In this document: one piece after another, positions 3,694-13,784 of the stretch | Position numbering within the stretch: the first letter of the stretch is position 1 | How the letters are laid out: each line of letters opens with the position of its first letter | Origin: Bacteroidota bacterium | Lineage (GTDB): Bacteria > Bacteroidota > Bacteroidia > UKL13-3 | Length of the DNA: 64,000 nucleotides | NCBI GenBank assembly: GCA_027487835.1 | Contig: JAIYCU010000044.1 | Coordinates: 186,001-250,000, forward strand | Reading direction: 5' to 3' | The notes under the pieces: generated by a model | Databases searched by the model: none | Told to the model about the DNA's origin: nothing | What the model saw: the letters and a program-made list of their open reading frames with translations, nothing else | Translations under genes and position numbers: made by a program

Positions 3694-5664
3694 TTATTGC
3701 AATAACATTTTTTGCAAATCATTTGAGTTAGGCAAGGTTACGTCATTGTCTAAACTTTCAAAAATTGAATTCTTGCTTTTAAATTCTGATACAATTTTTT
3801 TCATTTTTCCAACTATCAACATATTATCCTGTGAAGAATAGCTGATGATAAGATCATCAATACTATTTTTTGTGTCCTCAAAATGGTATTCCCTTACTTT
3901 TCCAATCATTATTTTATCATGATGGGTTGGTAAAGAGTTCTCTTGGTCGTTTAACAATTCTTCAAATATTTTTTCACCAGGTCTCAATCCAGTATAAATG
4001 ATTTGAATGTCTTTCCCTAGGGTCAGACCACTTAATTTAACCATCTTTTTTGCTAAGTCTACAATTTTGGTACTTTTACCCATATCAAAGATGAAAATCT
4101 CCCCACCTTTTCCCATGTTTCCCGCTTCCAGTACTAATTGACATGCTTCAGGAATGGTCATAAAGTAACGGGTAATGTCTGGGTGCGTAACCGTAATTGG
4201 TCCGCCTTCTTCGATTTGTTTTCTAAACCTAGGAATAACAGAGCCACTAGAACCTAATACATTTCCAAACCTTGTAGTTATGAATCTAGTTTGTCCTGTA
4301 TTATTTCTTATTAAATGATTATTAAGGCTTTGCACATAGATTTCTGCAATTCTTTTGCTAGCACCCATTACATTGGTTGGATTAACTGCCTTGTCTGTGC
4401 TAACCATCACAAATTTACTCGCCTTAAATTCAACAGCAAGATCTGCGACGGTTTTTGTGCCATTGATATTTGTCCAAACGGCTTCCCCTGGGTTTTCCTC
4501 CATAAGCGGCACATGTTTATAAGCTGCTGCATGATAAATTATTTCAGGATGAAACGCTTCAAAAACCCTATTCATTCTCGGTTTATTGGTAATATCTGCC
4601 ACCACTATGTCTACAAAAGTATTTAAAGCGCCTGGGTGATTTTCTGAAATTTCCGAATCAAGTTCGTATAATTTAAATTCATCTTTATCAACACAAACAA
4701 GTTTTTTGGGCTTAAATTTTAGAAGTTGCCTTACCATTTCGGAGCCAATTGAACCACCTGCTCCTGTTACCATAACTACTTTATTGTTAACCTGATTTCC
4801 TATGGCATCTTTGTTTAGTTTGATAACATCCCTTTCAATCAAATCCTCAATTTTAACCTGTTTAATTTGCTTAAAGCTAAGTTCTCCATTTATCCATTTT
4901 TCAACAGGTGGTACGGTTCTTACAATTACGTTTAGGTTTAAGCACCGTTCAATAATATCTTGTTTTTTACTAATGGGTAGGTCTTGGTCGGCTATTACCA
5001 ATTGCTTTATTTCCAATTTCCGAATAACCGATTCTAGGTCGTGACTGCCATTATAAATGGTAACCCCATCTAATATTTTTTCAAATGAGGTAGATCCATT
5101 ATGGAAAAAAGCAACCACTTTAATAGCATTGTCACTTTCTAATTCTAACTTTCGTTTAGCTATAATACCAGAAGAGCCTGCACCGTAAATTGCATATGGC
5201 TCCTTGGATGCCTTTGAATTGGTGCTGATTCTAATATACATCAAACGAACAAATAACCTAAAACTACCCAATAAGAAAGTCGACAAAATAAAGTCAACAA
5301 TCAAGAGTGTTAAAGGGAAAATATGTGTCTTATTATTGGGAAAATAAAGGTATACACCGTCAATCACAAACAAAAAAAGAAGTGAGGTGCCCATGGCATA
5401 AAATATTCTTACACCGTCTTGAATGCTAGTATGTCTAATTACAAACGCATGCAATCTATAATAGCTAATTGAAACTGATTTTATTAAAACAAGAATTGGA
5501 ATAGCAGAAAGGGCGTTGTATAAATTTGTGGTATTGAAGTCAAGGGTATACCTAGAAACAATCGCCAATATATAGGCTAAGGCACACAATCCAATGTCAA
5601 AAATCAAAATGAACCAACGGGGTACTTGACTTGATTTTGAAAAAATTACTCTAATTAGCTTCAT
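3694..5664 (-). CDS. Membrane-anchored nucleoside-diphosphate-sugar 4,6-dehydratase (CapD/WbpM/PglF family)
   Basis: The 656-residue length is that of the long, membrane-bound form. Four hydrophobic segments fill residues 15-130. A first Rossmann-like CoA-binding domain has GAGSSGI near 157. A catalytic SDR domain follows, with the NAD motif TGAGGSIGSE near 297 and the family's altered active site STDKAVNP...MGASK near 421-436, where Met replaces the usual Tyr. Family members convert UDP-GlcNAc to a UDP-4-keto-6-deoxyhexose, the entry to QuiNAc-, bacillosamine- and FucNAc-type sugars. It is a single gene on the minus strand, apart from the main plus-strand cluster, with its own promoter-like box at 5718-5725. 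The exact stereochemistry (5-inverting or retaining) cannot be read. Confidence 0.9.
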   Translation of the reverse strand: MKLIRVIFSKSSQVPRWFILIFDIGLCALAYILAIVSRYTLDFNTTNLYNALSAIPILVLIKSVSISYYRLHAFVIRHTSIQDGVRIFYAMGTSLLFLFVIDGVYLYFPNNKTHIFPLTLLIVDFILSTFLLGSFRLFVRLMYIRISTNSKASKEPYAIYGAGSSGIIAKRKLELESDNAIKVVAFFHNGSTSFEKILDGVTIYNGSHDLESVIRKLEIKQLVIADQDLPISKKQDIIERCLNLNVIVRTVPPVEKWINGELSFKQIKQVKIEDLIERDVIKLNKDAIGNQVNNKVVMVTGAGGSIGSEMVRQLLKFKPKKLVCVDKDEFKLYELDSEISENHPGALNTFVDIVVADITNKPRMNRVFEAFHPEIIYHAAAYKHVPLMEENPGEAVWTNINGTKTVADLAVEFKASKFVMVSTDKAVNPTNVMGASKRIAEIYVQSLNNHLIRNNTGQTRFITTRFGNVLGSSGSVIPRFRKQIEEGGPITVTHPDITRYFMTIPEACQLVLEAGNMGKGGEIFIFDMGKSTKIVDLAKKMVKLSGLTLGKDIQIIYTGLRPGEKIFEELLNDQENSLPTHHDKIMIGKVREYHFEDTKNSIDDLIISYSSQDNMLIVGKMKKIVSEFKSKNSIFESLDNDVTLPNSNDLQKMLLQ

Positions 5665-5760: not shown

Positions 5761-7506
5761 TCATTTTTTCACTTGAATTAATCGATAGCCTTCCTTTGGA
5801 GAATTTCCAAGTGCTTGAATTTCATATCCAAATTGAAATAAAAATGCACTATGACTTGGGCTTTGACAGGGCAAAGGCTGGTTCCAGCAATAACTGGTAA
5901 AGCGCGTGGTATCTGAATAATGGCTATAAGGCAAAAAAATGTTTTTAGGTTCAAATCCATTAAAAGTGGTAATCTGTTTATTTCTAGATTGAGTCTTGAA
6001 TATGTGAAATGGAATAAAACTAAGCATCATAAAAAAAACTAAGGTAAAATATGGAACAAGAAATTTCTGTTTTAACAATTGCTTGTTCCAGTAATTCCCT
6101 AAACATAAAGAAGCAAGGCCTATGGCAGTTGGCAACATCAGTCTATATTGGCGCAAAATAAACCATTCCAGAGCTAGCAAGAGTAAGGTCAAGCCGATAA
6201 AAAACAATTGAGTGCCACCCAGTGCAACTCTAGCTAAAGGTTTACGAATGGCCTCTAAAAGCAACAAAATGAAGCCAATTAACCAAATTAAACTCATGAA
6301 TTTGTTTATAATTCCCTTGTAACCTGAGCGTTGTGCCCAACTTAAATACTGGTTCCAAATGGAGTGATTTTCAATATTTTTCTTTACCACATTAGGGCTA
6401 AAATCATCTTTCACACCCCAATTAACAATCCCATTTCTATAGGCTTGATTCCAATCTAATGGAACCTGCCAGGTTGGTTTAGGCAATGCATTACCTAATA
6501 ATGGAATAGATTGATTTGCCATGGGATACAATAAATGCCCAGATAAGCTATAGTTTTTATATAAACCTGGAACTAATAATGCTACAGGCAAAAGTATAAT
6601 AGTGGCCAATCGGGTGGCTTTTTTAGAGAGACTGTTTAATCCCTTATCTTTAAAGAAGGCACTCCAAATGTTCTTATATGCAATTATGCCAACAATAACT
6701 GGCAACAAAGCAGGTGGTTTTAACATAAACCCAAAACAGGCTAAAATGAATACTACCCAATTTTGTTCTGTTTTGCTTATAGCAATGTAAATAATTAATC
6801 CTGTGTAGAATATAATGGGTAAATCAGGTGAAGGAGCGCTTAAAAATAGGAAACCAATAGGGATAAATAAAATAGAATAGATAAAAATATAAGGATTAGC
6901 TTGGTGGTAACTTTCCCAAGTTAAAAACCCAATCGCTATGATTATTAAAAAGCCATTTATGCCAAGGTATTGGATTCCTTGGTTTGGGTAGAAAACATTG
7001 AAAATGGTTTCACCTGAAAATAAAGACAATAAGCTGTGCCAACTGCTGTATAAACCGTAAGCTGGGTGCAGATTGGCAAGGCCATTCACCAATCCATAAC
7101 TTTGTATCCATTTTAAAGTTTGTAAATAATACATGCCCATATCATTAATTTTAGTAAGTTGGGCACTATGGTAAGCTATCAAAAGGCTTGAACCGAATAA
7201 AGCAAAAAGTAGAAATTTGGGAAGACCAATAAATTTTTGGGTGCTGTTTTTTATTTCTGTTTGAACCAAGTTGCCATAGCGCCATTTAATGACTACTGCT
7301 CCAAGTGCCAGCACTAGAAAAGAAAAAAAATCAATTTTACCACCAAGTAAAATGCATTGACTCAAAAGTGCCAAAAGGGCTATTCCTATTAATATAACGA
7401 AAAATGGATTTTCTGGAAGTTTCTTTTTAGTTAGCACAAAAGGAAGCAATCCATAGGCATGAGCAATCCAGCCTAAAATTAAGCCGAAAAACAGGTTTAG
7501 AATCAT
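5761..7506 (-). CDS. Large polytopic membrane protein (LIC_10190-like, possible GT-C fold)
   Basis: The 581-residue protein has about a dozen hydrophobic segments. A conserved-looking early loop holds an acidic residue (KINDMGMYYLQTLKW near 130), then GLANLHPAYGLYSSWHSL. This resembles Bacteroidota membrane proteins of the LIC_10190 type, and the early acidic loop recalls GT-C enzymes that use polyprenyl-linked sugars. Its ATG overlaps the stop of the exosortase F-associated gene by 4 nt, so the two are translationally coupled. It could be a glycosyltransferase or polymerase acting with the exosortase. Function is inferred from context and topology, not from catalytic residues. Confidence 0.55.
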   Translation of the reverse strand: MILNLFFGLILGWIAHAYGLLPFVLTKKKLPENPFFVILIGIALLALLSQCILLGGKIDFFSFLVLALGAVVIKWRYGNLVQTEIKNSTQKFIGLPKFLLFALFGSSLLIAYHSAQLTKINDMGMYYLQTLKWIQSYGLVNGLANLHPAYGLYSSWHSLLSLFSGETIFNVFYPNQGIQYLGINGFLIIIAIGFLTWESYHQANPYIFIYSILFIPIGFLFLSAPSPDLPIIFYTGLIIYIAISKTEQNWVVFILACFGFMLKPPALLPVIVGIIAYKNIWSAFFKDKGLNSLSKKATRLATIILLPVALLVPGLYKNYSLSGHLLYPMANQSIPLLGNALPKPTWQVPLDWNQAYRNGIVNWGVKDDFSPNVVKKNIENHSIWNQYLSWAQRSGYKGIINKFMSLIWLIGFILLLLEAIRKPLARVALGGTQLFFIGLTLLLLALEWFILRQYRLMLPTAIGLASLCLGNYWNKQLLKQKFLVPYFTLVFFMMLSFIPFHIFKTQSRNKQITTFNGFEPKNIFLPYSHYSDTTRFTSYCWNQPLPCQSPSHSAFLFQFGYEIQALGNSPKEGYRLIQVKK

Positions 7507-7895
7507 GAAAATTTAGATTTTGACATAGAGATTTTAAAGGCAAAACTACCGATTACTAACAATGGTGAAAACAAGATTGGGTTTACGAATTTGCTAATCT
7601 CAGCAGGGATAATTCGAAAGTATGAGCAAAAAAACAAAAATGTCAAAGTCAAAAGAAGACATAAAATTAGGATTAGGTTTTTTCTTTGCCAGTATGATTT
7701 TGGGATTAAAATGGCTAATCCAATCAAATTTAGACATAATCGGATTAACTTATTGAAAACCAATCCAATGATGGAGGTGTTTGGGTTGGTCCATTCAAAA
7801 TAGTTTTCAAAGGAAAAGTCAAATGGGTTGAGTGACTGAATGGCAAAGTTTAGCAGAATTAATCCAAACAGGAGGGCAATTTGTTTACTTTTCAT
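7503..7895 (-). CDS. Exosortase F system-associated membrane protein
   Basis: The 130-residue protein has four hydrophobic segments, an N-terminal NFAIQSLNPFDFSF region and a C-terminal KFVNPILFSPLLVIG region. These are the hallmarks I associate with the small partner of exosortase F in Flavobacteriia. It overlaps xrtF by 11 nt and the downstream membrane-protein gene by 4 nt. The role is unknown; it is assumed to help XrtF process or retain substrates in the inner membrane. Confidence 0.75.
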   Translation of the reverse strand: MKSKQIALLFGLILLNFAIQSLNPFDFSFENYFEWTNPNTSIIGLVFNKLIRLCLNLIGLAILIPKSYWQRKNLILILCLLLTLTFLFFCSYFRIIPAEISKFVNPILFSPLLVIGSFAFKISMSKSKFS

Positions 7896-8406
7896 TCACC
7901 TCAGTATTTACTTCTGCACTTTTATTTTTCTGAAATTTCACCCAAAAAACCATTATAAGAAAAGCAAAACCATAAAGCACCGCAGGAAAAACATATTCAT
8001 GAAAAAGGGGAAATTGTGCATTATAGTTCGATTTGATGTAAACCAACAGCCAGAGCCGTAACATATTTCCAAGTTGAAGCACAGCAAAACTACTTGGAAT
8101 AAACCAGAGGAATGCATTTGCATTGCCTCCAAAGGCTAGGCAAAATGAAAGGAGGGTGATAAAAATGGACATGCCATTGCAGCCCTCGGCAATATTTACC
8201 ATAGGCTTTTGTTTTAAAAACACGATAAACCCAGAGGCATCAGGTTTTAGTGTGGTCTTTATTGAATGAAAAGTGATATCTAATAAATATGCTGCCAATT
8301 CTGTAAAGGGGTCAGGCTTGAAAAGTTCTGTTGAAAGCCAATAGGCGATATTACCAAGCAGGTAAGCAACAATAAATTTGAGCAAAAATTTTAAAGAGGG
8401 ATGCAT
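7885..8406 (-). CDS. xrtF: Exosortase F (transpeptidase-like membrane protease)
   Basis: The 173-residue polytopic protein carries the three exosortase active-site blocks. The Cys is in AEGCNGMSIF near residue 77, the Arg is in NMLRLWLL near 116, and the His is in FHEYVFPAVLYG near 137. Exosortases cut C-terminal sorting signals of exported proteins and are often encoded with exopolysaccharide genes. The gene starts the minus-strand operon xrtF, associated protein, polytopic protein, and is divergent from an acyltransferase gene. No protein with an obvious sorting signal is encoded in this window, so the substrates must lie elsewhere. Confidence 0.85.
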   Translation of the reverse strand: MHPSLKFLLKFIVAYLLGNIAYWLSTELFKPDPFTELAAYLLDITFHSIKTTLKPDASGFIVFLKQKPMVNIAEGCNGMSIFITLLSFCLAFGGNANAFLWFIPSSFAVLQLGNMLRLWLLVYIKSNYNAQFPLFHEYVFPAVLYGFAFLIMVFWVKFQKNKSAEVNTEVNEK

Positions 8407-8491: not shown

Positions 8492-9595
8492 ATGAATTTT
8501 ACAAAGGATGAATTAAGCAATCTTGAATGGTGGAGAGGTTTTTTATCATTTCTTGTCTTTAGTGCACACATAGCGCAAATTATTTGGTTTCCTATTTATG
8601 GCAATAATGGTTTACTCGCCATTTTAATGTCAGGATTAGCCAATCTTTCTGTCGTTTTTTTCTTTGTTATTTCAGGCGTTTTAATATTTTTTAGTGCACA
8701 AAAATTATCGATAAACCATATTTTTGACTGGAAAAAATTCCTAATCAATAGAATGACAAGAATTTTTCCTAGCTATTATTTGGCCTTAATTATTTGTCTT
8801 GTTCTTATGATTTTTCTTACTGTTTTAAATGGGAATTCTTTTCAAATAGATAATGGCAGACTTGAAAATTTGGCTAGAAATGACTTTAGTGCAGGCACAT
8901 TAGATTTTGTTAAATCCCTATTTTTAATTAATTCGGATATTTTAAACCTGAATGGGCCCTTGTGGAGTTTATTTATTGAATGGTGGTTGTACATTAGTGC
9001 TATGTTTTTGTTTCTATTTTTTTCTAATGGTGGAAGTAGACAGTTTAAATTTTTATATTTTTTGCTATTTATTTTTTCATTGTATTTAAGTTCTGTGGGT
9101 TTAGGAAAAAGGGTAGTTCCTTATATAATAATTTGGTATTTTGGAGGAATTTATACCATTTATTTGCACAATAAGAATAGGTTATTCAATGTTTTAGTAT
9201 TTCTTTCACTAATTTTCATAGCTGTATTGATAAAGTTTTTTGGTATAGAGGTTCTAAACGTTAGGTCGGGTAATGGCTTAGGGTATTCTTGTTTTCAAAT
9301 ATTAATTTCAGTATTTTTTGTTTTAATCGGATTTAAGTTCTCAGGCAAATACTTTTTTAAAAAAATAGCGCCATTTTCTTATACACTTTATATTATACAT
9401 TTTCCTATAACTATGTTTTGCTTTGCTATTTTTATTAAATATTTCACGCTCAATAATTTATCTGCAATAGTTTTGACAATTTTTGTGCTTTTTCTTAACC
9501 TATTAATTTCCAAAAATATTGCAGTAATTTTTGAAGATAAATTTAGATTTAGAGTTTTATTTGAAAAACTTAGAGGTTTAAGGAGTTTTCGCTAA
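8492..9595 (+). CDS. Acyltransferase 3 (OafA/YrhL family) membrane protein
   Basis: The 367-residue protein has about ten membrane segments. RGFLSFLVFSAHIAQ near residue 15 contains the conserved Arg and catalytic His of acyltransferase 3. FFFVISGVLIFF, NRMTRIFPSYY and GPLWSLFIEWWLYI are typical following motifs. Such proteins O-acylate (usually O-acetylate) cell-surface polysaccharides across the inner membrane. It is transcribed to the right, away from xrtF, and stands 286 nt before the main operon, so it may be its own unit. Confidence 0.85.
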   Translation: MNFTKDELSNLEWWRGFLSFLVFSAHIAQIIWFPIYGNNGLLAILMSGLANLSVVFFFVISGVLIFFSAQKLSINHIFDWKKFLINRMTRIFPSYYLALIICLVLMIFLTVLNGNSFQIDNGRLENLARNDFSAGTLDFVKSLFLINSDILNLNGPLWSLFIEWWLYISAMFLFLFFSNGGSRQFKFLYFLLFIFSLYLSSVGLGKRVVPYIIIWYFGGIYTIYLHNKNRLFNVLVFLSLIFIAVLIKFFGIEVLNVRSGNGLGYSCFQILISVFFVLIGFKFSGKYFFKKIAPFSYTLYIIHFPITMFCFAIFIKYFTLNNLSAIVLTIFVLFLNLLISKNIAVIFEDKFRFRVLFEKLRGLRSFR

Positions 9596-9881: not shown

Positions 9882-10439
9882 ATGATGAAAATACTCCCCA
9901 CTTCAGAAAAAAAATGGTATCTTGTTTATACAAATCCGCGTGCAGAGAAGAAAGTGGCAAAATCCTATGAGCAATTGGGGTTTGAGTATTTTTTACCTTT
10001 GCAAAGAACCATCAAACAGTGGAGCGATAGAAAGAAATGGGTTGAGGAGCCCTTGTTTAAAAGTTATGTTTTCATCAAAATAGACCTAGAGAAATCAATC
10101 TATCATGTTTTATCAGTGGCAGGAGCCTCAAGATTTGTTCAATTTAATGGTAGGGCCGCAGAGGTTGATGAGCGAGAAATTAACATTGTCAAAAAACTTT
10201 TAGGTAACCTGTCTGATTTAACCATCTTAAACTCTTCTACGGATTATTTGGAGCACGAAGAGGGAGATGCCATCGAAATAGTTGCAGGTCCTTTGATGGG
10301 ATGCGAAGGTAAATTTCTAAATAAAAAGGGCAGTCAAAGCGTTTTAATTGAATTAAAGACTATGCAACAAGTGGTTTGCGTATCTATGCCTTTAGCTTAT
10401 ATTCGCCCCAAGAACAATCCTAAAAATAAAATAGCATAA
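9882..10439 (+). CDS. upxY: UpxY-family NusG-like transcription antiterminator
   Basis: The 185-residue protein has a NusG N-terminal domain (KKWYLVYTNPRAEKKVAK, then PLFKSYVFIKI, residues about 10-70). A C-terminal KOW-like segment follows (EGDAIEIVAGPLMGCEGKF, about 126-145). In Bacteroides, UpxY proteins head capsule operons and let RNA polymerase read through the long operon by acting at the leader. The position as first gene, directly before wza and wzc, matches that role. Two adjacent ATGs could start it. Confidence 0.88.
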   Translation: MMKILPTSEKKWYLVYTNPRAEKKVAKSYEQLGFEYFLPLQRTIKQWSDRKKWVEEPLFKSYVFIKIDLEKSIYHVLSVAGASRFVQFNGRAAEVDEREINIVKKLLGNLSDLTILNSSTDYLEHEEGDAIEIVAGPLMGCEGKFLNKKGSQSVLIELKTMQQVVCVSMPLAYIRPKNNPKNKIA

Positions 10440-10440
10440 A

Positions 10441-11271
10441 ATGAAGTATAATTTTTTAAAAATGTTTAGGCTTGTTACCATACCAATGCTTTTCGGCTTG
10501 ATGTTCTTAACATCTTGTGTATCCAATAAGAGATTCGTTTATATTCAAGATAAAGGAAATGTTAAGATGGATTCCTCACAACATATTATAATAGAACCCT
10601 ATAATTATAAAATTCAGAATGGAGATATTTTGTATATTAGTTTAATGTCTGAGGATGATCGTATAAATAAATTATTTGTCCCAAGTGCTCAAACAGCTCA
10701 AGGCGGTGGAGTTGGGGGAGGAATGGGGTCTCCTTTTTATTTTACAGGTTTTACAGTGGATCCAGAAGGAAAGGTTGAGTTGCCTTATGTAGGAAAAATA
10801 TCGGTTGCTGGCTTAGATTTGAATGGTGCTCGGGCAATGCTATCTTCAGAGTTAGCGAAATATTTTAAAGTTTTTTTCTTACAAGTAAAAATGGCTGAAT
10901 TTAGGTTTAGTATCATGGGGGCAGTTAATTCACCAGGCCAATTCTTTTTTCAACAAAATAAAGTTAGTATTTTAGATGCCATATTGAAAGCAGGTGATTT
11001 AAAAGATAACGCTATCCGTCACGAAATACAATTATTTAGACAATACCCAGAAGGGGTGAAAATGATTACAATTGATTTAACCGATCGCAGAATTATGAAC
11101 TCTCCTTATTGGTATATTCAACCCAATGATTTAGTGTATGTGATACCACTTAAATCAAGGGCAATTGGAGACTTTTCTAGTTTTCAGGCCTCAATGGGGT
11201 CAATTGGACCAATTATTAACAGTCTCTTTTTTGTTGTAAATGCATACATTTTATTTAGAGCCATCAGATAA
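10441..11271 (+). CDS. wza: Polysaccharide export outer-membrane lipoprotein (Wza-like)
   Basis: The 276-residue protein has a lipoprotein signal ending in LMFLTSC with the lipidated Cys at residue 26. A Poly_export domain (YKIQNGDILYISLMS, residues about 57-150) precedes an SLBB-like stretch (FSIMGAVNSPGQFFF, about 155-170). A hydrophobic C-terminal helix follows. It forms the outer-membrane channel for polysaccharide, working with the adjacent Wzc. It starts 1 nt after upxY and its stop shares one base with the start of wzc, so the three are translationally linked. Confidence 0.9.
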   Translation: MKYNFLKMFRLVTIPMLFGLMFLTSCVSNKRFVYIQDKGNVKMDSSQHIIIEPYNYKIQNGDILYISLMSEDDRINKLFVPSAQTAQGGGVGGGMGSPFYFTGFTVDPEGKVELPYVGKISVAGLDLNGARAMLSSELAKYFKVFFLQVKMAEFRFSIMGAVNSPGQFFFQQNKVSILDAILKAGDLKDNAIRHEIQLFRQYPEGVKMITIDLTDRRIMNSPYWYIQPNDLVYVIPLKSRAIGDFSSFQASMGSIGPIINSLFFVVNAYILFRAIR

Positions 11272-13784
11272 TGAAAAACCATAACAAAAATGACGATAAG
11301 GAGGATTTTGTTCCAAAGAATAAGGTCACAGAAATTCCTTTAGATTTCAAAGTAGTAATAGGAAAGGTCCTTTCCTTTTTGCCTATTTTCATTTTGTCCA
11401 TAGGATTTTCTATGCTGATTGCCTGGACGGTGACTAGGTATTCAGAAAGCAGGTTTTCAGTATCGGGTAGCATTTTGCTTAAAGAAAAAGCAAGGGGTAG
11501 CACGGCAGGATTAGAAAATTTCATAGAAGGAATGGAGTTGCTTTCTGTAAATAGAAACATTGAAAATGAGATTGCTATTTTGCGTTCAAAGAAAATGGTA
11601 TTAGAAACAATCAAAAAGCTTGATTTTGGTATTTCAGTTAAACAAAAGGGTTCAATTTTAGACCAAGATTTGTTTCGAAACACACCCTTTATCATAGAAA
11701 TTGATAGCAACCATGTTCAGCTAATGGGCACAGATATTAAATGCAAGTTTATTGATGATAAATCTGTTGAAGTATGGGTGGAAGAACCTGGATATCCATA
11801 TATTATTAAGACTGGCGAGTATTTAAATGGGGAACAAATTTTAGAGAAAAAAGTATTTGATTTGGATAAGGGAGTTTTTACAGAAAATTTAGGGTTTAAA
11901 ATTAATGTTTGGAATAAAACAGCCATAAAGCCATCAACTGAGTTTCATATTAAGTTTTTAAACAACGAAATGCAACTGGGTCTTTTTTATGGGCAATATT
12001 CAGTTTTTCCTTTAAATAAGCAATCTTCCATTTTGAGTATAAGTATGGAAACACCAAACCCAGCCAAGGCCCAAGTATTCATCAATGAGCTATTCGATAC
12101 TTATTTAGAAACGGATCTTAATGAAAAATCTGCAGTAACAAAAAGGACTATTTCATTTATTGACGAACAGTTAAGTATTGTTGCAGATACCTTAGGAATT
12201 GTAGAGAATGAGTTAAGCAATTTTAGAAACTTAAATAAAATAGTGTCGATTGAATCTAAAGCAGGAGAATTAGTTAGGGTAATGGTGCAATTGGAAAGCG
12301 ACAAAGTTAAATTGCAACTGCAGAATCGTTACCTTGATTACCTAGAATCCTACATTAAAGATTCAAAACCACTAGACGAATTGGTATTACCCGGAGTTGC
12401 TGGAATTGAAGATAATTCAATTAAAAATATTACAGATAAGATGATAGAACTTTATGTAAAGAAAAAGACATTAGATGCCAGCTATCACCCTAAAAACCCT
12501 ATTTTTATAGAAACAAATCAAGCTCTATTAGGACTTACAGAAGCAGTTTTAGAATCAATAAAAGGATTTCGTAGCAGTTTGAAAATTAACAATAAATTTA
12601 TTGATGATCAGATGTTGAAAATTAATGATCAAATAAGTTTATTACCAGAAACTGAACAAAAAATGATAAGAATGAATAGGAAATTCTTACTTAGTGATAA
12701 ATTATATACATACTTATTAGAAAAAAGAGCAGAAGCTGGTATTGCTGGAGCGGGCGTAGAACCTGATAGCAAAGTTGTGGAGGAAGCAGCCATACGAGAT
12801 CAAACTTTCCCAAAGCCTACGAATAATTATATACTTGCTTTTAGTATTGGATTAGTTTTACCGCTTATTTTTATATTAACTTTTGAATTTTTCAATCAGG
12901 ATATTAAGAATCACAGCCACCTGCAAGAGTTTACTCGAATTCCTTTAGTTGGAACGATTAATCATAATGACAAAAACACAGCGCTTGTAATTGCCAATCA
13001 TCCTAAGTCCCAAATTTCTGAATCATTTAGAACGCTCAGAAGCAATATTGCATATATTGGAGAGAAAAAGGGAAAGCGTACGATTATGGTTACCTCAACA
13101 ATTTCTGGGGAAGGAAAAACCTTTGTAAGTATGAATTTAGCTTCTGTATTGGCAATAGGTGGATATAAAACTATTTTAGTTGGAGTTGATTTAAGAAAGC
13201 CTAAGATTTTTCAGGATTTTAAACTTGATAACAGTTTTGGTTTAAGTAATTACTTAATCGGGAAAGCATCAATCGAACAAATAATTCAGCCAACAGGTTT
13301 AGAAAATTTAAGTGTAATTACAGCAGGTCCAACTCCTCCCAACCCATCCGAGTTAATTATGTCAGATAGCTTTTATGATGCAATAAATAACTTGAAAGAA
13401 AAGTTTGATTTTGTTATTTTAGATACGCCTCCTATCGGCTTGGTAGCTGATGGATTAGATATCATGAAACATGTAGATGTGGTTCTTTACGTGGCAAGAC
13501 AAAATGTTTCCAAGAAAACTTTCTTTGGAATGATCAATGAAATCTATTCAAATGAATCCAATAAAAATATTGGTTTAGTTTTCAATGACGTAAACTTTGC
13601 AACAGTTTATGGATACGGCTATGGTGCTTATGGCTATGGTTATGGTTACTCAAGTGGCTACGGCAGTGGTTATGGTTATGGCTATGGTTATGGTTATGGC
13701 TATGGTTATGGTTATGGTTATGGTTATGGCGAAAGTGAAGATTCAGCAGAAAAACCTCTTTGGAAGCGCATACTTGGATTTTAA
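11271..13784 (+). CDS. wzc: Wzc-like chain-length regulator and BY-kinase with Tyr-Gly tail
   Basis: The 837-residue inner-membrane protein has a Wzz-type N-terminal helix (about 28-50), a long periplasmic coiled region and a second helix near 518-535. The cytoplasmic BY-kinase domain has Walker A TISGEGKTF near 608, Walker A' ILVGVDLRKPK near 634 (Gly replaces the first Asp of the usual DxD) and Walker B FVILDTPPIG near 713. The C-terminus (about 780-820) is almost pure Tyr-Gly with 18 tyrosines by my count, then an acidic/basic end. BY-kinases autophosphorylate such tyrosine clusters, and the phosphorylation state controls polymer length and export. It acts with Wza. Confidence 0.92.
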   Translation: MKNHNKNDDKEDFVPKNKVTEIPLDFKVVIGKVLSFLPIFILSIGFSMLIAWTVTRYSESRFSVSGSILLKEKARGSTAGLENFIEGMELLSVNRNIENEIAILRSKKMVLETIKKLDFGISVKQKGSILDQDLFRNTPFIIEIDSNHVQLMGTDIKCKFIDDKSVEVWVEEPGYPYIIKTGEYLNGEQILEKKVFDLDKGVFTENLGFKINVWNKTAIKPSTEFHIKFLNNEMQLGLFYGQYSVFPLNKQSSILSISMETPNPAKAQVFINELFDTYLETDLNEKSAVTKRTISFIDEQLSIVADTLGIVENELSNFRNLNKIVSIESKAGELVRVMVQLESDKVKLQLQNRYLDYLESYIKDSKPLDELVLPGVAGIEDNSIKNITDKMIELYVKKKTLDASYHPKNPIFIETNQALLGLTEAVLESIKGFRSSLKINNKFIDDQMLKINDQISLLPETEQKMIRMNRKFLLSDKLYTYLLEKRAEAGIAGAGVEPDSKVVEEAAIRDQTFPKPTNNYILAFSIGLVLPLIFILTFEFFNQDIKNHSHLQEFTRIPLVGTINHNDKNTALVIANHPKSQISESFRTLRSNIAYIGEKKGKRTIMVTSTISGEGKTFVSMNLASVLAIGGYKTILVGVDLRKPKIFQDFKLDNSFGLSNYLIGKASIEQIIQPTGLENLSVITAGPTPPNPSELIMSDSFYDAINNLKEKFDFVILDTPPIGLVADGLDIMKHVDVVLYVARQNVSKKTFFGMINEIYSNESNKNIGLVFNDVNFATVYGYGYGAYGYGYGYSSGYGSGYGYGYGYGYGYGYGYGYGYGESEDSAEKPLWKRILGF
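13608..13730 (+). repeat. Tandem 6-nt repeat encoding the Wzc Tyr-Gly tail
   Basis: The coding repeat unit is TATGGY. Positions 13671-13730 hold ten uninterrupted units and 13608-13670 hold a degenerate version broken by Ala, Ser-Ser-Gly and Ser-Gly. Because the unit is 6 nt, slippage would add or remove Tyr-Gly pairs without a frameshift. Confidence 0.85.

Follow-up and report, generated by a model that had tools for sequence, protein, structure and literature searches.

Genes for PID-CTERM microproteins, the candidate substrates of a small exosortase, sit directly 3′ of T9SS type A cargo genes, and this linkage is new. The exosortase is encoded in the window (the whole stretch of 64,000 nucleotides that was analysed), in one operon with a small membrane protein and a polytopic protein of predicted GT-C fold. 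The operon may be an exosortase module for PID-CTERM microproteins that is coupled to glycan-lipid chemistry, a reading to which we assign a probability of about 0.5. The original prediction for this DNA was silent on the main link, that to T9SS cargo genes elsewhere in the genome, which was found by analysis of gene neighbours. The relevant features of the window are as follows.

3694-5664, minus strand: CapD/WbpM-type membrane-bound nucleotide-sugar 4,6-dehydratase, 656 aa (PF02719, 402.9 bits)
5761-7506, minus strand: LIC_10190 family polytopic protein, 581 aa (NF047510; predicted GT-C; candidate catalytic acid D122)
7503-7895, minus strand: small exosortase-associated membrane protein, 130 aa (TIGR04127, 14.4 bits; position kept in relatives)
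7885-8406, minus strand: exosortase, 173 aa (ORF with TIGR04178, TIGR04128 and NF046081 scores; C76, R117, H136)
8492-9595, plus strand: acyltransferase (Acyl_transf_3; PF01757, 74.6 bits)
9882-10439, plus strand: upxY (NF033644, 138.5 bits, cut-off 100)
9882-13784, plus strand: start of the glycan locus, with upxY, a wza-like and a wzc-like gene (NF033644, PF02563, TIGR01007)

The predicted operon structure stands: all three ORFs were confirmed, the exosortase gene overlaps that of the small protein by 11 nt, and the latter overlaps the 581-aa gene by 4 nt. The distance to upxY, given before as 1.5 kb, is 1.48 kb when measured from start to start, with the acyltransferase gene in between. On the minus strand the 581-aa gene is followed, after 96 nt, by the dehydratase gene, probably the fourth of the run; counting the window locus, 7 of 17 loci have a dehydratase gene immediately behind the large gene in the same orientation. 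The acyltransferase, on the other hand, falls outside the conserved set, because the close relatives L079 and L080 lack it at this spot and have exosortase and upxY as immediate, divergent neighbours. From this comparison it looks like a case of insertion or loss. The Wzc-like kinase (11271-13784) ends in an extended glycine-tyrosine repeat (GYGYG), apparently an unusual version of the tyrosine-rich tail.

The operon is more than a chance arrangement: relatives carry the same gene set, with large proteins that share 24-88% identity with the 581-aa protein. In our comparison set of 60 genomes, the source genome included, a relative of the 581-aa protein is encoded in 24, and the exosortase signature is matched in 45, a count that includes G037, whose sole match is a long exosortase of another type. 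The large protein gene adjoins the exosortase in 17 of the 24 genomes (turned round in G013), and the small protein is kept between the two in relatives. The two genes are 13 kb apart in G005 and on different contigs in G001, G006 and G014, while G031, G037 and G056 have remote relatives of the large protein only. A collection of named genomes contained 46 loci of the large protein, all but one titled as Bacteroidota or members of it, and an exosortase lies within 6 kb in 20 of the closest 25. A conserved neighbour like the 581-residue protein, for which the original prediction had proposed a search, is therefore present. In a tree of 33 exosortases, 16 of the 17 with a large neighbour fall into one clade of 21 (support 100/97), the exception being that of G027. 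In three loci of other genera (L067, L069 and L070) the exosortase belongs to a different gene set, with the order fmt, PID-CTERM, exosortase, and then membrane proteins of 144-149 aa and 574-578 aa. The L067 exosortase just passes the XrtX cut-off, and the two membrane proteins of this locus have no NCBIfam match.

The 173-aa protein is a member of the exosortase/archaeosortase superfamily by its signature (TIGR04178, 47.2 bits, cut-off 23), and it also matches PF09721 (29 bits, cut-off 25.7). Residues C76, N114, R117, L121, H136 and Y145 are invariant in all 33 aligned homologues, so the Cys, Arg and His blocks noticed earlier are real. The name xrtF, in contrast, is insecure. The protein scores 84.0 bits against XrtF (TIGR04128; 84.2 in the genome search), under the cut-off of 90, which is passed by one relative, L087 (103.2 bits); against XrtX (NF046081) it scores 80.7 bits, with a cut-off of 170. 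It is thus intermediate between XrtF and XrtX, under both curated cut-offs. Nor does the 130-aa protein merit the label of an xrtF-associated protein, given its 14.4 bits for TIGR04127 against a cut-off of 35.

The third gene had been described as little known, but its product belongs to a family that already has a name, the "LIC_10190 family membrane protein" (NF047510, 173.5 bits, cut-off 100), the function of which is uncharacterised. A sequence search of the PDB with the 581-aa protein gave nothing relevant. Its AlphaFold2 model, made from 21 sequences (pLDDT 84, pTM 0.89), was compared with known structures by VIA-align, and the first 36 rows (Z 10.4 to 5.2) consist entirely of GT-C enzymes and of complexes that include one, among them ArnT, ALG12, EmbB, Pmt4, AftA, Stt3 and PglB. 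The best match is ArnT (PDB 5f15, Z 10.4, 341 residues aligned), which shares the predicted fold but is only 8% identical and leaves the first 93 residues, comprising several helices, unmatched. Foldseek alone was weak (best E 0.065 to ALG3, then EmbA-EmbB). Because Z values under about 13 can be common by chance for helical models, the assignment rests on the uniform identity of the matches and not on Z. D122 lies directly past the helix 97-114 of the model and is invariant in 21 of 21 sequences. GT-C enzymes such as ArnT, with its aspartate, carry a catalytic acid in the first external loop, and D122 is a candidate for its equivalent here. By the fold of its model, the 581-aa protein is predicted to be a GT-C lipid-sugar glycosyltransferase. 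The earlier idea that it might load or attach glycan would fit this predicted fold.

Genes for amino-sugar synthesis may be relevant here. WlbA-, WlbB- and WlbC-like genes (WbpB, WbpD, WbpE) precede the exosortase in the same orientation at 5 of 17 loci (G015, G018, G022, G027 and G034; some with an extra ORF between). For the G027 set, the assignment is supported by PDB relatives, namely WbpE for the aminotransferase, the LPS acetyltransferase 3mqg, and the oxidoreductase 3q2k, with WbpB weaker. The G015 set scores under the NCBIfam equivalog cut-offs, and we therefore hold the Wlb/Wbp assignment at the family level. In the source genome, the trio (G000:C20:260502-263301) lies past the end of the window, some 66 kb away from the exosortase on one and the same contig. 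WlbA-like genes are common (31 of 37 genomes), so that a link is indicated solely by their place next to the exosortase.

An alternative that we think rather unlikely is that the exosortase processes PID-CTERM microproteins while the GT-C protein serves the neighbouring polysaccharide pathway, the two sharing a transcript only. The operon does lie beside glycan genes in many relatives. Moreover, the 21 more distant loci in the named collection (Flavobacteriaceae, Hymenobacter and others) encode divergent LIC_10190 homologues, none of them (0/21) with an exosortase within 6 kb, which indicates that the family has other jobs; the neighbours of these homologues (DUF2400, ABC ATPases, HAD hydrolase) offered no functional clue. 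However, the order of exosortase, small protein and GT-C protein is kept despite otherwise different neighbours, and the genes overlap in the window. Both points speak against this alternative.

Candidate substrates of the exosortase are present in the source genome, as a genome-wide scan of the kind originally proposed has revealed. With neighbour and substrates both present, neither of the two outcomes named beforehand as fatal to the original prediction came about, and that prediction is partly supported. Two proteins score over the 26-bit cut-off of PID-CTERM (NF046080): one of 62 aa (L132:7008-7196, 36.2 bits) and one of 67 aa (L133:7661-7864, 33.8 bits). Hydropathy was also used to look for tripartite C-terminal signals in the window and in 41 loci, but this approach was discarded, as it returned polytopic proteins and spurious short ORFs. 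In NCBIfam, PID-CTERM is paired with XrtX. Our data support a pairing with exosortases, because the next gene 3′ of the PID gene is an exosortase in 12 of 67 cases. In the 71 alignable proteins out of 74, the motif is P-[ILV]-D-G-G, followed by a helix, Y-G and K-K. The PID ends a crude median of 14 residues after the presumed signal-peptide cut, the cut site being called by a simple scripted pattern and not by a trained predictor.

PID-CTERM was found in 38 of the 60 genomes. Among 59 relatives, 33 were counted as carrying both the small exosortase and PID-CTERM, 10 the exosortase only, 4 PID-CTERM only and 12 neither (p 4e-4). One of the PID-only genomes, G032, has exosortase pieces at two contig ends; with this genome moved, the counts are 34, 10, 3 and 12 (p 1.3e-4), where both p values ignore the relatedness of the genomes. 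The ten exosortase-only genomes have no PID-CTERM match, and the remaining three PID-only genomes yielded no exosortase with a sensitive profile (G012, 99% complete; G023, 96%; G016, 68%). Presence of LIC_10190 and presence of PID-CTERM are not significantly associated (p 0.13). Some PID-CTERM genes occur in unusual settings. In L152 (G008, contig C19), three of them are clustered with a 93-aa ORF in which just a T9SS-like end is left, and the whole looks like a duplicated cassette. Other copies are found at contig ends (G027 C15 and C23, G074 C7 and C18, G078 C137 and C209), as if near-identical cassettes were breaking the assemblies. L135 and L159 encode longer PID-CTERM proteins (190 and 168 aa), which have an additional mature region; their genes are likewise 3′ of those for very large proteins with a T9SS-like end.

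The linkage to T9SS cargo is evident from the gene neighbours. In the source genome, the two microprotein genes lie 26 and 95 nt 3′ of genes with a T9SS type A signal, on the same strand. This signal has 121 matches there, about 4% of genes (assuming 1.1 kb per gene), most of them without a PID partner, and PorU is present with 1295 bits (cut-off 420). In the 60 genomes, 75 places with PID genes were found and 74 examined; 65 have a same-strand 5′ neighbour, of which 62 are distinct. TIGR04183 matches 48 of these 62 neighbours, as opposed to 3 of 67 neighbours on the 3′ side (Fisher p 5e-19; 68 picked, one of which ran off its contig), the two sets being built slightly differently, since the 5′ set is same-strand only and the 3′ set takes either strand. 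The result was reproduced in held-out genomes. An order-level search of new genomes gave 37 further PID places, of which 20 were taken; 15 of the 19 with a 5′ neighbour have a TIGR04183 match there, and three of the four misses are fmt. Judged by eye from the C-termini, linked cases are found in seven families of the class. Type B T9SS cargo is often tied to PorP/SprF-like shuttle genes (PMC12618676), and the pairing of PID and type A genes may be seen as resembling that arrangement.

A local profile of the T9SS domain gave a count of 55 of 65, which we dropped in favour of the TIGR04183 count, because the training set of the profile was a mixture of neighbours and Fmt proteins were among its matches. 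The partners that it selected share a module nonetheless: 50 of the 55 form one BLAST component with a common module of about 365 residues, and 42 of the other 54 align in this 365-residue module with the 922-aa partner from the source genome. No Pfam family was found in the four members scanned. The module is predicted to be all-beta, and its model had no PDB match above Z 4.3, a result too weak to count as evidence of a new fold. As a PID marker the module is imperfect, since a PID gene accompanies only two of its four copies in the source genome. Of 20 module genes lacking a curated PID match, 4 have a PID-like ORF by a custom profile.

The tight 3′ linkage to large secreted proteins might also be expected if PID-CTERM proteins were never cut, and, as two-helix membrane proteins, served the T9SS protein encoded upstream as chaperones, inhibitors or immunity-like partners, with the exosortase directed at a different target. 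The three genomes with PID-CTERM in which no exosortase was found point the same way. We consider this quite improbable, however, in view of the signal-peptide-like cut site, the constant P-[ILV]-D-G-G with helix and basic tail, the exosortase as next gene in 12 of 67 cases, and the co-occurrence of exosortase and PID-CTERM given above, a statistic blind to relatedness. The source genome does have a second exosortase, XrtN (TIGR04476, 290 bits), but it is very unlikely that XrtN processes the microproteins while the window exosortase serves another substrate, since the XrtN gene overlaps that of its own VIT-domain partner (TIGR04477, 782 bits; both genes at L077:8714-12545, contig C22) and in relatives the PID genes adjoin the small exosortase.

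The gene set and its conservation, the catalytic residues, the GT-C-like predicted fold, the PID-CTERM proteins, their linkage to T9SS genes and the place of the sugar genes are computed results. From these we infer the cleavage, the transfer, the acceptor, the sugar donor and the role of the product, which under the preferred reading would be as follows. Microproteins of about 60-70 aa would be exported by Sec, and signal peptidase would remove the N-terminus; each microprotein consists of a signal peptide, some 14 residues that are often acidic and end in P-I/L/V-D, the GG, a membrane-spanning helix and a basic tail. The Cys-Arg-His exosortase would then cut near PID-GG and transfer the C-terminus of the peptide to an acceptor, a lipid or a sugar. 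This acceptor would be built or extended by the LIC_10190 GT-C protein, using a polyprenyl-phosphate-linked sugar and supplying the sugar chemistry on the periplasmic side; the acceptor sugar would plausibly be an amino sugar made by the region's nucleotide-sugar genes. The product might serve the T9SS type A surface protein encoded just upstream, for example as a surface partner or docking site. A bolder version, about which we are doubtful, joins exosortase and T9SS sorting into one pathway. In it, the exosortase, the GT-C protein and the Wbp-type amino-sugar genes would together make a peptidyl glycolipid, with an amino sugar on the C-terminus of the peptide of some 14 residues, and this glycolipid would be the dedicated anchor or receptor, at the surface, of the T9SS type A protein encoded next to each microprotein.

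What is attached by Bacteroidota exosortases, and to what, is the question on which this lineage bears. It brings together a GT-C enzyme in the exosortase operon, Wbp/Wlb-type genes before the exosortase in some members, and candidate substrates encoded one gene after T9SS type A cargo. In a literature search that covered subscription papers thinly, the linkage of exosortase, PID-CTERM and T9SS cargo was undescribed, and there was no mention of PID-CTERM, nor of XrtX or LIC_10190 in the sense used here. The substrates of XrtF in Flavobacterium johnsoniae were left to future work by the study concerned (PMC10936215), and a 2020 study of T9SS stated that the use of the Wbp/Vim sugar pathway in CTERM systems needs further work (PMC7468200). 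Both questions become testable on defined proteins of 60-70 aa.

Several known systems resemble the one described here. In Porphyromonas, T9SS type A cargo is anchored through a Wbp/Vim linking sugar, as the 2020 study has it (PMC7468200). Similarly, the source genome has PorU and its 121 type A signal matches, and Wbp/Wlb-type genes adjoin the exosortase in five relatives and share its contig in the source genome; use of the same sugar, or an exosortase that feeds this anchoring route, would be hypothetical for the source genome. The XrtF system of F. johnsoniae (Fjoh_1448/1449; TIGR04128, TIGR04127) is of the same superfamily and likewise pairs an exosortase with a small protein, and deletion of xrtF or its neighbour cuts biofilm and (sand) colonisation; the window proteins, however, score under both cut-offs, and the accessible text of that report names no third gene or substrate (PMC10936215). 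The XrtX/PID-CTERM system (NF046081, NF046080, NF046082) likewise has a small exosortase and a small associated membrane protein, with PID-CTERM microproteins in the genome. It differs in that the window exosortase stays far under the XrtX cut-off (80.7 against 170 bits), that a GT-C protein is part of the window operon, and that the candidate substrates of the window genome are dispersed beside T9SS genes and not by the exosortase. Finally, in the PEP-CTERM/EpsH systems an exosortase is found near exopolysaccharide genes and acts with a tripartite C-terminal signal, whereas the system of the window has another signal motif, microprotein substrates and a linkage to T9SS cargo.
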